From assembly GCA_903932685.1 (NCBI GenBank), contig CAIZGX010000026.1:1-36719 (forward strand): a DNA stretch of 36,719 bases. The letters are read 5' to 3'. The notes beneath the pieces are model-generated. The model was given only the letters and a program-made list of their open reading frames with translations, did not search any database and was not told where the DNA came from. The stretch is from an uncultured Bacteroidota bacterium. GTDB lineage: Bacteria > Bacteroidota > Bacteroidia > Flavobacteriales_D > Sanyastnellaceae. Shown here piece by piece: positions 10,994-35,808 of this stretch. Within the stretch, counting starts at the first letter, position 1. Every line of letters starts with the position of its first letter. The position numbers were made by a program, and so were the translations under genes.

Positions 10994-13255
10994 ATGCGAT
11001 CAGCACTTTTTATTTTATTCGCTTTGTTCATGAACACTCTTTCAGCGCAGTCATTAAGCGTGAAGCAGAATTTAACTTCTCCCTTCATGACATGGGTTTT
11101 CAATGAAGAAGGAAAAACAGAAATCATGTCGTGCACTGTTCCCGGGAATGTCCATCGTGATTTAGTCTTGAATAAAAAGATTGCAGATCCGCTTGTTGGA
11201 ACGAACGAAACCACTGTTCAATGGGTATCTGAAAAAAGTTGGGAATACACGTTGAACGATTTCGTTTGTGAGCCGAACATGCTTCTTCAAGATAAAATTG
11301 AATTGCGTTTAAATGGAATAGACACTTACGCAAAAATTTTCCTCAACAATACTTTCCTGGGTGAAACGACCAACGCGTTCGTGCAATTCGATTTCAATGT
11401 GAAAGGAATTCTTCTTCCGAAAGGAAATAAGCTTCGCATTGTTTTTTCTCCGGCTGAAGCCTACGCGAAACAAAAATTAGCGGAACGCATTCTTCCCCTT
11501 CCAGGCGACAGCATTCGCGCAGTTTGCAGAAAGCCCCAGTATCACTTCGGTTGGGATTGGGGTCCGAAGCTTGTGACGTGTGGTATTACTAAAAACATTG
11601 AACTCGTTGGACACACTGACTTGTTGTTCGAAACGTTTGGTGTGGAAACCCTTTCATTGAATGAAGGAAAAGCGCAAATGCGAGCGCATGTGCATTATCG
11701 CGCCGACAAGGAAGAAAAAATTGCTGTAGCATTTAATTTCGGCGGACAACTATTCAAGGAAGAATTTGTTTCTCGCGTGGGAGAACATGACTTTATTTTT
11801 CCATTCGAATTGAATGAACCCAAGCTGTGGTGGCCGAATGAAGCTGGAACTCCGTTTATGTATTTGGTGCAATGCACACTACAAACAGCAGGTGGCAAAG
11901 CAAATACGCGTGTGATTAAAACGGGGGTTCGTACTATAGAGTTGGTGAACAAACCCGATGAATTCGGAGAGAGTTTTTACTTCAAGGTAAACGGGAAAAG
12001 CATTTTCATGAAGGGCGCGAATTACATTCCGTTGCGCATGCTTCCTGCCGTTAACAGTGAATCGGAATACCGAATTCTATTGGAGCAATGCAAGGGCGCG
12101 CACTTCAATATGTTGCGCGTTTGGGGTGGTGGAATTTACGAAAGCGACATGTTCTATTCGTTGTGCAACGAAATGGGAATTCTCATTTGGCAAGACTTCA
12201 TGTTTGCGTGCAGCATGTATCCGGGCGATGCGAAATTTTTAGAAAGCGTTCAAAAAGAAGCCGAACAAAACGTTCGCAGAATTTCTTACCACCCATGCAT
12301 GGCCCTTTGGTGCGGTAACAACGAGAATGCCGAAGCGTGGTCGAATTGGGGTTGGAAGACGGGTCTTTCAACGTCTTCTGTTTCTGCGATTGACAGCGAG
12401 TACAATCAATTGTTCAATCAGCTTTTACCTGGAATTGTCGGACACTTTTCGAACCTCCCCTATTGGCCATCTTCGCCACAGTTCGGGAGAGGAAACAAGG
12501 AATCGTTGAATGTTGGTGATTCCCATTACTGGGGACTTTGGCACGACGCGCAGCCGTTTTCAGTTTTGGAAACGAAGGTTCCTCGATTCATGAGTGAGTT
12601 CGGCATGCAAAGTTTTCCGAGTGAAGATGTGTTGAAATTGATGTCGCCTCTCGCGCCTTACGACATGAATTCCGAAGGAATAAAATTGCATCAGAAAAAC
12701 GCACGTGGATTTTCGCTCATGAAACAGTACACAGAACTCTGGTATCCTGAAGCCAGCAAGCTTCCAACCCAAGAATACGCGAAGCTTACCCAAGAAATGC
12801 AAGCCGAAGGCATGTGTCGCGCCATTGAAGTTCAGCGCAGCAGTCCGCGTTGTGGAGGGACCTTGTACTGGCAGTTGAATGACGTGTGGCCATCGTTTTC
12901 CTGGAGCAGTATTGATGTGTTGGGAAAGGAAAAAATCTTCCATCAAAAATTAAAAGAGAGTTACGCTCCGCAATTACTGACATACAAAATTGAGAACGAT
13001 TCGCTCTTCGTTGTTTGGGTCGACGATCAATTCAGCCAGCCTTATGAAGTGAAAGTATTCGGGGATATAAATCAGCTTCAAAAGAAACGTCCCAGGGGCG
13101 TTGGCTTCAGTAATTACACCATTAAGGTGAATGGAAGTATTTCACAAAGTGAAGGTATTTCACTTCGAGAATTAAAAGGAAAGTATGAGCGAATGTTGTT
13201 GCTTAATGCAGAGTATAAGGATATTCTTTTAGAAAGAAGGTTTACGATTCGCTAG
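10994..13255 (+). CDS. Exported beta-mannosidase, glycoside hydrolase family 2
   Basis: A 753-residue GH2 enzyme with a signal peptide (residues 1-18, ending ..TLSAQ). The sugar-binding domain contains VPGNVHRDLV, the TIM-barrel start has GVRTIELV and KGANYIP, and the barrel contains MLRVWGGGIYE, WQDFMFACSMYP and CGNNENAEAW. The acid/base is E444 in GNNEN, and the nucleophile is E535 in SEFGMQSFP, both diagnostic for beta-mannosidases. It would release mannose from the non-reducing end of beta-mannosides outside the cytoplasm. The C-terminal part after the barrel is about 100 residues, somewhat shorter than in many homologues of 800 or more. It is 3 nt after the GT2 gene; a role in trimming a mannose-containing glycan is inferred from that position. 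Confidence 0.9.
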   Translation: MRSALFILFALFMNTLSAQSLSVKQNLTSPFMTWVFNEEGKTEIMSCTVPGNVHRDLVLNKKIADPLVGTNETTVQWVSEKSWEYTLNDFVCEPNMLLQDKIELRLNGIDTYAKIFLNNTFLGETTNAFVQFDFNVKGILLPKGNKLRIVFSPAEAYAKQKLAERILPLPGDSIRAVCRKPQYHFGWDWGPKLVTCGITKNIELVGHTDLLFETFGVETLSLNEGKAQMRAHVHYRADKEEKIAVAFNFGGQLFKEEFVSRVGEHDFIFPFELNEPKLWWPNEAGTPFMYLVQCTLQTAGGKANTRVIKTGVRTIELVNKPDEFGESFYFKVNGKSIFMKGANYIPLRMLPAVNSESEYRILLEQCKGAHFNMLRVWGGGIYESDMFYSLCNEMGILIWQDFMFACSMYPGDAKFLESVQKEAEQNVRRISYHPCMALWCGNNENAEAWSNWGWKTGLSTSSVSAIDSEYNQLFNQLLPGIVGHFSNLPYWPSSPQFGRGNKESLNVGDSHYWGLWHDAQPFSVLETKVPRFMSEFGMQSFPSEDVLKLMSPLAPYDMNSEGIKLHQKNARGFSLMKQYTELWYPEASKLPTQEYAKLTQEMQAEGMCRAIEVQRSSPRCGGTLYWQLNDVWPSFSWSSIDVLGKEKIFHQKLKESYAPQLLTYKIENDSLFVVWVDDQFSQPYEVKVFGDINQLQKKRPRGVGFSNYTIKVNGSISQSEGISLRELKGKYERMLLLNAEYKDILLERRFTIR

Positions 13256-13402
13256 AATGCCGATAACGAATGTCCGAAGGACTAATGTTGGCATTGCCAA
13301 CGAATGTCTTTGACGAATGCCTATGGCGAATGTCCGAAGGACTAATGTTGGCATTGCCAACGAATGTCTTTGACGAATGCCTATGGCGAATGTCCGAAGG
13401 AC
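13256..13402 (+). repeat. CGAATG-linked micro-palindrome array after the beta-mannosidase gene, with a 60-bp tandem duplication
   Basis: Directly after the stop codon, a hexamer CGAATG (variant CTAATG) alternates with short palindromes. In order from 13267 the palindromes are TCCGAAGGA (13273), TTGGCATTGCCAA (13288), TCTTTGA (13307) and CCTATGG (13320); the same four then recur at 13333, 13348, 13367 and 13380, and TCCGAAGGA appears a third time at 13393. The unit is exactly 60 bp, and copies 13267-13320 and 13327-13380 are identical. The arms are 2-6 bp with 1-3 nt centres. No long reading frame is present. It could be a mobile minisatellite or a 3' untranslated structure. Confidence 0.9.
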
Positions 13403-13483
13403 TTTAATTAATCTTGCGAAGCATCGTCGAAGACTGTCGTTCGTAGAACATTCGTCGAAGACATTCTCTCCTTAAAAAGGAGA
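13403..13483 (-). repeat. CGAATG-linked micro-palindrome array after dnaB, opposite orientation
   Basis: Read on the minus strand, from the end of dnaB, the same architecture appears: GAATG, TCTTCGA, CGAATG, TTCTACGAA, CGACAG, TCTTCGA, CGATGC, then an AT-rich stretch. The linkers decay with distance from dnaB. The 17-nt hairpin TCTCC-N7-GGAGA at 13467-13483 contains the dnaB stop codon in its loop. The array thus meets the one coming from the beta-mannosidase gene head to head at about 13402. It could also act as the terminator region for the two converging genes; there is no classical GC stem with a T tract here. Confidence 0.75.
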
Positions 13484-15067
13484 TTCTTCCCCGCCTGTGA
13501 ACGTAAAGTCCTCATCATCGCCAAAGTCATCATTCATCTTCGAAGCAACGGTAATGGTAGTTGCTCCGCTATCTAGGAACGCGTTGTTGGCAGGAACCGT
13601 TCTGGCTTCCGTTGAACCTCCGTTAAAATCGTTATTGAAGTTATAGCCGTCGACATCGGCGAATTTCGCGAGGTTCGCAATAAAGCGAAGGCGAATATTA
13701 TCGAGTCCTCCGTTACGGTGTTTCGCAATAATTAATTCAGCCAGACCTTGAGAAGGTGTGCGTTCGTTGTCGTTGAATTCGGTAAGTCCGTAATATTCTG
13801 GACGGTAGATAAACCCTACTATATCGGCATCTTGCTCAATCGCTCCAGATTCACGTAAGTCGGAAAGCATAGGGCGTTTGTCTCCGCCACGTGTTTCAAC
13901 AGAACGAGAGAGCTGTGAAAGCGCGATAACGGGCACATCGAGTTCTTTCGCAATTTGTTTAATGGAACGGGAAATAGCTGAGATTTCTTGTTCACGGTTT
14001 CCGCCTTTGCCTTCGCCAGCGGTCATGAGTTGCAAGTAGTCAATGATGATCAGTTCTATTCCGTGGTTCGATTTTAGTCGTCGACATTTCGCGCGCAATT
14101 CGAAAACCGAAAGTGCGGGAGTATCATCTATGAATATGGGAGCTTCAGACAAGTTCACGACTTGATGATGCAGTTGCGTCAATTCATAATCTTTCAGCTG
14201 TCCTTTTCGAAGTTTCTCAGAATTGATTTCCGTTTCGCTCGCAATCAAACGTTGAACCAATTGAACGCCTGACATCTCGAGTGAGAAGACCGCTACAGGG
14301 CGTTTGAAATCTACTGCAACGTTTCTTGCCATCGACAGAACGAACGCTGTTTTTCCCATACCCGGACGAGCGGCGATAACAATCATGTCCGACTTCTGCC
14401 ATCCGCCAGTAAGTTTATCAACTGCATTGAATCCGGTTGGTGTTCCGCTAATTCCATCTTTGTTTTTTCTAGCTAATTCAATCGCTTCCATGGCCGACTT
14501 CACGAGTGTGCTCATTTTGTCGGAAGACTTACGAATGTTCCCTTCGGCAACTTCGAAGATGTTGCTTTCTGCTTTGTCTAATAAATCGAAGGTATCAGTG
14601 GTTTCATCGTAGGCTGCTTTAATAATTTCATTCGACACGCGTATTAATTCGCGTTGAATGAATTTTTGCGAAACGATACGTGCGTGAGTTTCAATGTTGG
14701 CGGTAGAGGCAACGCGATTGGTTAACTGTGAAATGTAAAGCGGTCCACCCACAAAGTCGAGTTTACCTGCTTTACGAAGGGCTTGGGTAACCGTAAGAAT
14801 GTCAACTGCTTGTCCAGCCCCGAATAACTCGCGAATAGCTTCGAATATATCTCCGTTTGCCTCTTTGTAAAACGAATCGGGTTTCAGGATATCGATAACC
14901 GCGTTCAGCGATTTCCCTTCGAGTAGCATGGCGCCAAGAACCGCCTCTTCCAAATCAACGGCTTGTGGTGGAAGTTTCCCCATTTCATTCGCTGGCATGA
15001 AGTCGCGAATAGAGGAAACTCTGTCTTTGCGTGGGTTTTTCGGTTTGTAGTTATTATCGGTTGCCAT
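13472..15067 (-). CDS. dnaB: Replicative DNA helicase DnaB
   Basis: A 531-residue hexameric helicase that unwinds the lagging strand template at the replication fork. The N-terminal domain begins around residue 30 (GKLPPQAVDLEEAVLGAMLL), which interacts with primase. The RecA-like C-terminal domain has Walker A ARPGMGKTAF, the Walker B region IELIIIDYLQLM, and the SRSVETRGGDKRPMLSDLRESGAIEQDAD region typical of DnaB. No intein interrupts the ATPase motifs. The frame is open 110 codons further upstream, but that extension runs through repeats and has no family similarity, so the ATG at 15067 is chosen. The C-terminus carries an acidic tail (DDFGDDEDF) common in Bacteroidota. It stands alone and leftward, convergent with the beta-mannosidase gene. 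Confidence 0.95.
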   Translation of the reverse strand: MATDNNYKPKNPRKDRVSSIRDFMPANEMGKLPPQAVDLEEAVLGAMLLEGKSLNAVIDILKPDSFYKEANGDIFEAIRELFGAGQAVDILTVTQALRKAGKLDFVGGPLYISQLTNRVASTANIETHARIVSQKFIQRELIRVSNEIIKAAYDETTDTFDLLDKAESNIFEVAEGNIRKSSDKMSTLVKSAMEAIELARKNKDGISGTPTGFNAVDKLTGGWQKSDMIVIAARPGMGKTAFVLSMARNVAVDFKRPVAVFSLEMSGVQLVQRLIASETEINSEKLRKGQLKDYELTQLHHQVVNLSEAPIFIDDTPALSVFELRAKCRRLKSNHGIELIIIDYLQLMTAGEGKGGNREQEISAISRSIKQIAKELDVPVIALSQLSRSVETRGGDKRPMLSDLRESGAIEQDADIVGFIYRPEYYGLTEFNDNERTPSQGLAELIIAKHRNGGLDNIRLRFIANLAKFADVDGYNFNNDFNGGSTEARTVPANNAFLDSGATTITVASKMNDDFGDDEDFTFTGGEESPF

Positions 15068-23733: not shown

Positions 23734-23761
23734 GGCGCCAAAAATAAGACAAAAAAAAGAA

Positions 23762-23857
23762 GGCAAGCCCCTTATATCGCACCGCTACAACTTTCTACCT
23801 TTGCTGCCTTCCGGCCCTGGAGGATTTGAAAGGAGCTGGTCGTATAAGACTTGCCTT
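23762..23857 (-). ncRNA. ffs: Signal recognition particle RNA (4.5S-like)
   Basis: On the minus strand the core CCAGGGCCGGAAGGCAGC carries the GGAA tetraloop (23809-23812) and the asymmetric internal loop of SRP RNA domain IV, where Ffh binds. The two ends pair: GGCAAG with CTTGCC, then TTATA with TATAA and ACC with GGT, giving a single long hairpin of about 95 nt, the normal size for a short bacterial SRP RNA. The 3' end runs into eight T residues (23751-23758), consistent with intrinsic termination. A complete promoter precedes it. The RNA works with Ffh and FtsY in cotranslational membrane targeting. Confidence 0.93.
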
Positions 23858-23861
23858 TGTG

Positions 23862-23893
23862 CAAATGTAAGCCGTGAATCGCTTCATTGCAAA
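23862..23893 (-). promoter_or_regulatory. ffs: Promoter of the SRP RNA gene
   Basis: On the minus strand TTTG (23890-23893) is followed by exactly 20 nt and TACATTTG (23862-23869). This matches the Bacteroidota primary-sigma consensus TTTG-N19-21-TAnnTTTG in both boxes and spacing. The first stem bases of the RNA begin about 5 nt downstream of the -7 box, as expected. Confidence 0.85.
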
Positions 23894-34629: not shown

Positions 34630-34995
34630 ATGGAACAAAATACCAATACCTTTTTCAAGGCAACCTTTCAATTAATGCTAACCTGTTTAGCACTCTTCAT
34701 TGGCGATTATTTGCTCGATGGATTTTCGGTAGACTCTTCTATCACTGTCATCGTAAGTGCAATTGTCATTACGCTATTGAATCGATTTTTGAAACCCATT
34801 TTGATTGCATTGACTATTCCGGCAACGCTTTTCACTATGGGGTTGTTCCTGTTGGTTATTAATGCTTCTATGCTTTTGATTGCCGGAGAGCTTGTTGACG
34901 GTTTTAAGATCGATGGTTTCTGGTCGGCGTTGTGGTTGTCGTTTGTTATTTCGTTGACGCACTTATTCTTAGGCAAAAGCACTAAAGCTCGCTAG
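34630..34995 (+). CDS. Phage-holin-4 superfamily small membrane protein (YvlD-like)
   Basis: A 121-residue membrane protein with four hydrophobic segments. Motifs of the Phage_holin_4_2/YvlD family are clear: F-x-L-M-L-T-C-L-A-L-F early on, then ITLLNRFLKPILIALTIPATLFTMGLFLLVINASMLLIAGELV, the family's N-x-x-x-K-P-x-L-x-x-x-x-x-P-x-x-x-x-T-x-G-L core. Despite the name, chromosomal members are usually not phage lysis genes. A long frame is open upstream to 34231, but it lies antisense to the NHL gene; the ATG at 34630 matches the family start. The stop codon lies in the 10-nt palindrome TCGCTAGCGA, which opens the downstream repeat array. Confidence 0.85.
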   Translation: MEQNTNTFFKATFQLMLTCLALFIGDYLLDGFSVDSSITVIVSAIVITLLNRFLKPILIALTIPATLFTMGLFLLVINASMLLIAGELVDGFKIDGFWSALWLSFVISLTHLFLGKSTKAR

Positions 34996-35105
34996 CGAAC
35001 GAATGTTGCGGAGCAACGAATGTCGATGACGAATGTTCACTAGTGAACGAATGCCCGAAGGGCGAATGCTGCGGAGCAGCGAATGTCGATGACGAATGTC
35101 TGCGA
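34989..35105 (+). repeat. CGAATG-linked micro-palindrome array after the holin-like gene
   Basis: Seven exact CGAATG hexamers (35000, 35017, 35030, 35048, 35063, 35080, 35093) separate eight palindromic units: TCGCTAGCGA (34989), TTGCGGAGCAA (35006), TCGATGA (35023), TTCACTAGTGAA (35036), CCCGAAGGG (35054), CTGCGGAGCAG (35069), TCGATGA (35086) and TCTGCGA (35099). The arms are perfect and mostly flank a 3-nt centre (GGA, GAA, GAT, TGC). The palindromes differ in sequence while the linker stays identical. The array starts at the stop codon of the holin-like gene and ends about 30 nt before the next gene. Confidence 0.95.
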
Positions 35106-35136
35106 CGAGATGAATAGAACACATTACATTTATGAT

Positions 35137-35808
35137 ATGAAAACAAATCTTTTCATTGCCCTTCTCTTTTTCTCCGCCGTTGCAATTGCGCAACCTTCCA
35201 CCAAAAAAAATCCGAACGAATTCATCCCTGCGGGATTCGTATTGGTTAGTTCTGTTGAAGGAGATTTGAACAAAGATGGAATAGCCGACAAAGTACTTCT
35301 TATTAAAGGAACCGATAAAGGTGCATATGAAAAAAACGAATTCGGCAAATTTGTCGACCGCAACAGAAGAGGGATCATTGTTCTGTTCAAGAAAGACAAT
35401 CAGTATCAAATGGTCTTGAAAAACTTAAATTGTTTTTCTTCCGAAAACGAAGACGGCGGTGTGTATTACGCTCCTGAGCTTTCTTTGGAGATCAACAAAG
35501 GAAATCTCTATGTTCACTATGCACACGGACGATATGGATATTGGAAATACACCTTCCGATACAGAAACTCCGATTTTTACTTAATTGGCTATGACTCCAG
35601 TGAAGGCGGCGAAGTTGTTGAAAAAGAAACCAGCATCAACTTTCTTTTAAAGAAGAAACAAGAAAAGGCGAACACCAATGAAAGCGCGGAAGGCGGAGAT
35701 GAAGAGTTCAAAGAGACCTGGACCAACATTACCGTATCCAAATTACTTAAGCTTCGCGACATCAAAGACTTTGAAAATTTCGAGGAAGTGGATATGTTGA
35801 AGTATTAG
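35137..35808 (+). CDS. Exported protein of unknown function
   Basis: This 223-residue protein has a signal peptide (residues 1-18, ending ..AIAQ). An EF-hand-like or FG-GAP-like loop, GDLNKDGIADKVLLIKG (about residues 41-57), suggests calcium binding or a beta-propeller blade (D-x-N-x-D-G-x-x-D pattern). The rest contains aromatic beta-rich segments (YVHYAHGRYGYWKYTFRYRN) and an acidic, lysine-rich tail. I do not recognise a family with confidence. The frame is open upstream to 35083 through the repeat array, but the ATG at 35137 starts the signal peptide. It is followed after 27 nt by the DUF2442 gene. Confidence 0.75.
   Translation: MKTNLFIALLFFSAVAIAQPSTKKNPNEFIPAGFVLVSSVEGDLNKDGIADKVLLIKGTDKGAYEKNEFGKFVDRNRRGIIVLFKKDNQYQMVLKNLNCFSSENEDGGVYYAPELSLEINKGNLYVHYAHGRYGYWKYTFRYRNSDFYLIGYDSSEGGEVVEKETSINFLLKKKQEKANTNESAEGGDEEFKETWTNITVSKLLKLRDIKDFENFEEVDMLKY

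Follow-up and report, generated by a model that had tools for sequence, protein, structure and literature searches.

Background

Among the known repeats near to the strings described here are the REP, BIME and REPIN elements (tags GTAG or CGTC), which go with RAYT: they are short intergenic palindromes in many copies, foldable as single strands and partly clustered. Excerpts of one study state that REP families retain the palindrome sequence and the tag (PMC3733652). In our strings, on the contrary, stem and loop are free while the linker is kept, several linkers interchange, and no transposase is consistently present. The Rickettsia palindromic elements (RPE) are single longer elements, of about 100-150 bp, which place palindromic DNA in frame in protein genes, a property shared by the strings that we found in AroE, CoaE and FdhD; these differ from RPE in having 9-13 bp units in changing number, with periods of 12 or 45 bp, and the same design as the strings at gene 3' ends. 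According to excerpts of Mikhailov et al. (PMC6649704), RPE lose the identity of their arms with time, whereas pairing is kept in hairpin strings. The same excerpts report, for coding palindromes of nematomorph mitochondria, that perfect arms are kept, that palindromes are gained and lost between species and that template switching has been proposed; our strings resemble them in the kept arms and in the gain and loss between species, but the nematomorph arms, which reach 284 bp in that source, consist of conserved sequence belonging to the genes themselves, whereas we are dealing with tiny hairpins in added strings. The intergenic TAACTGA heptamer repeats (Beggiatoaceae, Cyanobacteria, some Bacteroidetes) likewise repeat a fixed short word at the borders of genes, and do so in Bacteroidetes among others; in Beggiatoaceae they stand mostly directly before start codons, and the excerpts of their description mention no variable palindromes between the words (PMC4679880). 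In CRISPR, fixed and variable parts alternate regularly as they do here, but the variable part of our strings is a self-complementary unit of 5-13 bp reused genome-wide, and dozens of arrays lie behind ordinary genes.

Such strings are not described in the open-access literature that we searched for precedents. We file them as small palindromic repeats of bacteria, in a variant which conserves the linker and the pairing instead of the palindrome sequence.

Results

The string behind the PF04020 gene

The window is the whole stretch of DNA that we analysed, 36,719 nucleotides long, from a genome (G000) which is a fragmented draft. Its features are collected in Table 1; genes were called with our own dicodon caller, without annotation. 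The palindromes of the string at 34989-35106 are, in order, TCGCTAGCGA, TTGCGGAGCAA, TCGATGA, TTCACTAGTGAA, CCCGAAGGG, CTGCGGAGCAG, TCGATGA and TCTGCGA, that is seven distinct sequences, TCGATGA being present twice, and the seven exact CGAATG linkers start at 35000, 35017, 35030, 35048, 35063, 35080 and 35093. A sequence-only reading of this DNA had described seven identical hexamers between eight small palindromes in the 3' flank of a gene. The count is exact, the array sets in at the PF04020 gene's stop codon, and the CGAATG arrays at large likewise lie 3' of genes. In the counterpart from G001 (L144), units are shifted, loops are altered and arms have changed on both sides (TTGC/GCAA vs CTGC/GCAG).

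Near 13266-13493, at a second site, a + strand string and a - strand string face each other behind convergent genes, and the CGAATG string contains a 60-bp duplication (13255-13403, 96% matches). At the gathering score, Rfam yields only a small SRP RNA in the window, the Bacteroidales type (RF04183) at 23757-23863 (-), and no match in the stretches L019, L024, L029 and L188.

Table 1. Coordinates of the string-bearing sites and neighbouring genes in the window
Feature	Position	Strand	Remarks	Basis
Hairpin string	34989..35106	+	8 palindromes and 7 CGAATG; counterpart at the matching place in G001	sequence
First palindrome, TCGCTAGCGA	34989..34998	+	holds the TAG stop of the upstream gene (34993-34995)	sequence, gene call
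Linkers 1-7 with the six palindromes between them	35000..35098	+		pattern search, sequence
Last unit, TCTGCGAC	35099..35106	+	of the TCTNCGAC kind, seen after the last parsed linker in 55/104 arrays	
Upstream gene, PF04020 (Phage_holin_4_2), 121 aa	34630..34995	+		gene call, Pfam
Downstream gene, no Pfam match	35137..35808	+	the gene caller's start, 35089, falls inside the string and is doubtful	
Second CGAATG string	13266..13402	+	starts 11 nt past the stop of gene 10994-13255	
Facing string	13411..13493	-	one palindrome encloses the stop codon (13472-13474) of a - strand gene	
Glycosyl hydrolase family 2 gene preceding the second string	10994..13255	+		gene call, Pfam

Anatomy of the strings

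Typically a string opens at a stop codon, or close to one, with NGAATG or NTAATG, after which CGAATG separates units of 5-13 nt. We parsed 535 linkers (G000, G001, G004, G006 and two MAGs), of which 409 read CGAATG, 37 AGAATG and 32 CTAATG: the linker, which had been called invariant, is so in the string at 34989-35106 (7/7) but not strictly so over these 535. The consensus shares are.89 (C),.88 (G),.97 (A),.99 (A),.97 (T) and.99 (G), the low values at positions 1 and 2 stemming mostly from AGAATG and CTAATG. As read from the sequence, the first C and the last G of the linker can pair as the outer G-C of adjoining hairpins, and the unpaired part may be GAAT alone. The last parsed linker of 104 arrays is followed by TCTNCGAC in 55, by another palindrome in 27 and by no palindrome in 22.

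No palindrome is constant, 83 of the 166 units of G000 being distinct, and the module TGCAAGCA, for one, is found 12 times, spread over 9 of the 38 arrays. The sequence-only reading had set the array apart from CRISPR and REP. We agree, since the inserts are palindromes shared among arrays and not unique foreign spacers, since what stays constant is a linker, CGAATG or a different one, and not a tagged palindrome, and since RAYT (Y1_Tnp) genes show no consistent association with the strings, two Y1 genes nevertheless having CGAATG hairpins within 1.5 kb. The outer positions of distinct inserts are complementary in 193 of 236 cases, compared to 138 ± 6 when the partners are dealt again.

Triloops make up 149 of the 170 hairpins in the 38 GAAT runs of G000. 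They are closed by C-G in 138 cases, T-A in 10 and G-C in one, whereas the background triloop hairpins outside the runs (n=1784) are closed by C-G in 355, G-C in 296, A-T in 590 and T-A in 543; the other linker families, too, show C-G most often at this place. Loops of the GNA or TNC type with C-G closure account for 88/149 in strings and 81/1784 in the background. The counts of the two loops are about equal (GNA 48, TNC 40), which means that neither strand is favoured. In DNA, mini-hairpins with a GNA loop and G-C pairs are exceptionally stable (excerpts of PMC4686876).

A purine-rich leader without hairpins, GGTAAGA/GGGGAAGA, stands between the stop codon and many CGAATG strings (L022, L012, L010). 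Many CGAATG strings then run into a second string type, AACGAAGTT-CCAAC and TACGAAGTA-GGAAT; at L020:8060-8380 and L187:12200-12400 it takes the forms TACGAAGTA-GGAAT, AAAATCTTCGATTTT-CCAAT and AACGTAGTT-CCAAC, often right behind CGAATG strings. In two stretches from other Bacteroidota (L032, L039), short direct repeats of the CGAATGG/CGAGTGG or CGAATGTTGCGATGGTA type lack such hairpins; the word may be related.

Census and spread

The sequence-only reading had made the special status of the element depend on arrays outnumbering those of shuffled intergenic sequence and on hexamers being conserved between close strains. The pattern CGAATGN{7,13}CGAATGN{7,13}CGAATG has 34 + 30 = 64 overlapping matches in the 2.37 Mb genome vs 0 for the reversed pattern taken as a control, and the hexamers are conserved between relatives, so that the element withstands that test in both respects. 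The genome holds about 40 arrays; our parser groups the fetched stretches, picked for holding arrays (the window and L010-L028, L029 being an extra piece of an array-bearing contig), into 38 arrays with 204 linkers.

Seven of the nine genomes of the genus carry this triple pattern, which is absent from G007 (95% complete) and G008 (84%). Beyond the genus, we looked at 51 more genomes from the family and the order, and 2 have 1-2 matches: G033, with two candidate matches, and G050, with one vs three in the reversed control. A scan of contigs from named genomes gave at least 114 loci; among the matches listed, five pass the palindrome filter, and three of these (L037, L040 and L087), which come from two MAGs of freshwater Flavobacteriales, are genuine strings. 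None of the 95 viral loci of IMG/VR with the spaced pattern holds hairpin strings of this kind (L298, L358, L361 and L371 pass an arm-of-2 filter, but their inserts are identical tandem copies), and we rejected carriage by phages.

We also searched without fixing the linker, for at least three different hairpins joined by one identical linker. The 351,531 bases of our own genome, nearly all in stretches selected for arrays, gave 79 runs vs 2 in one dinucleotide shuffle. Stretches from G001 and G004, mostly picked for arrays, gave 35 vs 3 and 58 vs 2. The first contigs of other genomes gave 8 vs 2 (G006), 10 vs 3 (G008), 1 vs 2 (G003), 2 vs 4 (G007) and 0 vs 1 in each of G010, G012 and G033, and the loci of other taxa from the named-genome scan 18 vs 8. 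On 20 contigs of our own genome without CGAATG matches (269,183 bases) there are 9 runs vs 0-4 in five shuffles, and a named string lies within 150 nt of 2 of their 220 gene ends. Hence the strings are clustered and not uniform. Contigs C9, C11, C21 and C72 have ends no farther than about 0.6 kb from a string, which makes it look as though strings interrupt the assembly.

Position relative to genes and exchange of linkers

In four genomes (n=94), the gene upstream of a CGAATG run is on the same strand in 67 cases and on the opposite one in 23, two runs being inside a gene and two at an edge (67/90, p 4e-6); in G000 alone, counted by arrays, it is on the same strand in 28 of 37. In 65 of 101 arrays a same-strand stop codon falls between -40 and +300 nt relative to the first linker, peaking at -4 (10), -2 (8) and +9 nt (8), which means that the first linker often incorporates the stop. 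Of the same-strand CGAATG runs with both neighbours called, 42/65 are in convergent gaps. In integrons, each accessory cassette gene is followed by an attC site and an integrase is present. The upstream genes have an ordinary chromosomal look in the 20 of 26 listed that we scanned (EngA-type GTPase, class II tRNA synthetase, RNase E/G, DHDPS and others; three without Pfam match), perhaps unlike such cassettes.

Other linkers are used with the same design in the same genomes: GAGG (CGAGGG), CA (ATCAAT), ATGA (GATGAC), GGAAT/CCAAT/CCAAC and AGG/AGA. The ratios of same to opposite strand are 12:3 for family C (with 6 more inside genes, some probably by chance), 10:6 for family B, 8:7 for the GATGAC type (D), 3:6 for CGAGGG (2 more inside) and 7:1 for AGG/AGA (10 more inside). 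That string and upstream gene share a strand is thus a clear rule in the CGAATG family and a probable one in C and AGG/AGA; it is unclear in the remaining families. Strings and linker families are regional; L029 (G000:C64:1-20000), for example, holds eleven runs of the GATGAC, ATCAAT and AGG types and no CGAATG run.

Families can be exchanged at one gene end: at L025:14825 we found CGAATG in G000, CGAGGG in G001 and ATCAAT/ATTGAT in G004. Counting the gene ends with an ortholog in the fetched stretches as same family, different family, only own, only other and none, we obtained 14, 4, 6, 2 and 87 for G001, 6, 6, 8, 6 and 72 for G004, and 3, 1, 0, 0 and 16 for G006, where the "other" linkers count as one family, both ends of a convergent gap may count twice, and some sites entered as none carry shorter or degenerate strings. 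Co-occurrence with different families in G004 has an odds ratio of 9 (p.002), which the choice of stretches can inflate.

Change between sister species

At matching gene ends of G000, G001, G004 and G006 we compared the linkers lying between the same two arm pairs, letting the linker be anything of 3-9 letters. Such a unit pair turned up in 54 of 126 anchored comparisons and in none of the other 72; 82 of 86 linkers are 6 long, and these differ at 4/492 letters (0.8%), the loops at 88/516 (17%), in a tally which counts both directions and in which arrays are shared between pairs, with upstream flanks 89.9% identical. A first, stricter parse (59 pairs, mean flank identity 90.7%) gave 10/582 for the linker, 42/1106 for the arms and 100/496 for the loops, the figure for the arms being biased low because units had been matched by their arms. 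The reversed logic noticed in the window, a fixed linker with free palindromes, is genome-wide and kept between species. To judge from these sequences, the constraint on the linker beside drifting loops is the strongest evidence for what is probably an upkeep of single copies. Kept linker and kept pairing are together the maintenance signature of the hairpin strings.

Over 59 pairwise array comparisons, 212 units were gained or lost, 97 were identical, 52 differed in the loop only, 15 in both arms (some of which may be replaced units) and 12 in one arm. The ratios of gained or lost to matched units are 86:63 in the 5' third, 65:65 in the middle third and 61:48 in the 3' third, so that there is no clear polarity of growth from the stop codon.

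Strings in frame inside genes

In AroE of G001, G004 and G005, in-frame 12-bp units of the AGA type encode DxxQ/DxxK repeats (L192:13071-13880 (-), L237-L242), and G002 and G006 have units of the CCT type, in the opposite orientation, at the same site; AroE of G000, G007 and G012 is without units, the partial matches of G003 and G008 being left out. CoaE carries in-frame units in G002, G005, G006 and G008 (L214:305-913, L249-L255) and none in G000, G001, G004 and G007; G012 has no repeat, and a partial G003 match was left out. Our own genome contributes a further case: a string of the GATGAC type that repeats every 45 bp (L265:18467-18610) lies in frame in a gene of the FdhD/NarQ family (PF02634, E 4e-60). 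The in-frame strings are thus AGG/AGA/CCT (AroE, CoaE) and one GATGAC (FdhD), not CGAATG. They point to a process at the level of DNA which is not bound to mRNA ends.

Discussion

The explanation which we put first, although tentatively and with rather less than full conviction, is that strings arise and are renewed at the DNA level, and that selection on linker and pairing retains the copies at stop codons, which may serve as a structured tail of the mRNA. Whole units are duplicated and lost; the perfect arms were probably written by foldback or template-switch copying, aided by the very stable d(C-GNA-G) type mini-loop. Copies starting on or just past a stop codon, in the direction of the gene, would be kept by selection on pairing and linker, under which loop letters would be free and arm letters would change in pairs. 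The likely use would be a structured, ribosome-free mRNA tail from stop codon to terminator, a shield against 3' exonucleases or Rho, and the unpaired linker might be read by a protein. The foldback origin and the mRNA-tail function are what we infer. Excerpts of the literature report that template switching creates and repairs perfect stems (PMC8794818), that it homogenises arms and inverts spacers in yeast genes (PMC8604942), and that quasi-palindrome mutations in a yeast assay occur only under high transcription (PMC3820800). Inversion of the loop is scarce in our data (the reverse complement in 1/62 triloop changes) and is not supported as a signature of template switching.

The DNA-level origin is favoured by the in-frame strings, the strand-symmetric loops, the ordinary RNA stability and the absence of a G-U preference, which would suit strings with or without a function. 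The folding z of the window's string is -1.66 for the sense RNA, -4.89 for the antisense RNA and -2.41 for DNA, and the means over 38 arrays are -1.19 (sense), -1.46 (antisense) and -1.79 and -1.69 (DNA); as the sense values are nothing out of the ordinary, sense-RNA stability as the selected trait was rejected as unsupported. G-U tolerance as an RNA signature was rejected as well, imperfect pairs being G-U in 5 and A-C in 6 of 1035 pairs (units with more than one mismatch dropped). Further points against our first explanation are that the orientation is unclear in some families, that the in-frame strings cannot be mRNA tails as they lie inside genes, and that only 2/220 gene ends have a string outside the clusters.

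The sequence-only reading had suggested selection on secondary structure plus a recognition hexamer. Its first half agrees with the signature of maintenance on structure and linker; the second, taken as one special hexamer, is not supported, since other linkers share the design and replace CGAATG at the same stop codon, and we found no protein or RNA partner for linker or hairpins. Replication slippage, which it had offered as another origin, can be seen in the gain and loss of whole units and in the 60-bp duplication but would not alone fix linkers while loops drift.

A possible, if somewhat doubtful, rival is a mutational parasite without host function: in this lineage, slippage and foldback copying at mini-hairpins would go on producing strings, which would survive only where harmless (gene 3' ends, tolerant protein sites), the linkers seeming fixed as units copy one another. 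It would account for in-frame strings, present in AroE, CoaE and FdhD as well as in further genes and differing between sister species, for GNA and TNC loops without strand preference (48 and 40), for the lack of both an RNA stability signal and a G-U signal, for regional clustering with internal duplications, and for hairpin modules recurring across arrays, as TGCAAGCA does. A permissive background might be added: SbcD, the hairpin nuclease, has no match over the cut-off in 18/18 genomes of the family (three weak matches; a control on 14 known genomes detected it in 13, in 8 over the cut-off). Since SbcD is unmatched in string-free genomes too, and XseA is matched in 15/18, loss of either as the cause of the strings was rejected; it would be permissive at most. 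What the parasite does not explain, by whole-unit copying, is that single linkers are fixed in matched units whose loops have drifted, and it needs an additional reason for the starts at stop codons and the sense bias. This linker constraint is why we favour a use at mRNA ends over the parasite; a string with a different linker family kept at the same stop codon is also counted for selection.

We consider it unlikely that the strings form a 3'-end code. Such an element of structure plus linker would begin at the stop codon and leave the sequence of stem and loop free; its several interchangeable linkers would act as "addresses", each with its own single-strand-binding factor, and species would exchange them in complete sets at one and the same gene end.

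A simple series of intrinsic terminators is improbable. The location past stop codons, often in convergent gaps (42/65), would suit this reading, as would the 10 nt past the TCTNCGAC unit: T makes up 46% of them, and in 29/55 a TTT lies no more than 8 nt away; but the stems and the T-runs are short, internal units precede GAAT and not T, RNA stability is ordinary, and L188 has, as read by eye, a typical stem-plus-T terminator beyond its strings.

Least probable of all is that the strings are mobile hairpins of the REP kind, with a single-strand transposase (HUH, Y1) that reads hairpin and linker and moves them: one Y1_Tnp gene exists in our own genome, with matches in G001, G004 and G006 and CGAATG hairpins at most 1.5 kb from one Y1 gene in G004 and one in G006, but G003 (96% complete, 61 pattern matches) has none, nor have G002 and G005, with fewer pattern matches, while G014, G030 and G033 have Y1_Tnp and almost no pattern or none, no palindrome with a GTAG or CGTC tag is conserved, and the changes are unit turnover at fixed sites and not new sites, so that dependence on a Y1 transposase, being inconsistent, was rejected as weak.

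Conclusion

The hairpin strings after genes look like a new style of bacterial repeat, a lineage-specific class in a group of uncultured freshwater bacteria: it is the joint of the repeat which is conserved, and the palindromes drift yet stay paired. The sister species are a natural experiment on the birth, repair and upkeep of perfect hairpins, and the in-frame strings of AroE and CoaE make DNA-level hairpin maintenance testable against protein constraint. If the role at 3' ends is true, these bacteria would have an mRNA-tail structure which is invisible to sequence-based searches, because it has no constant stem or loop sequence.
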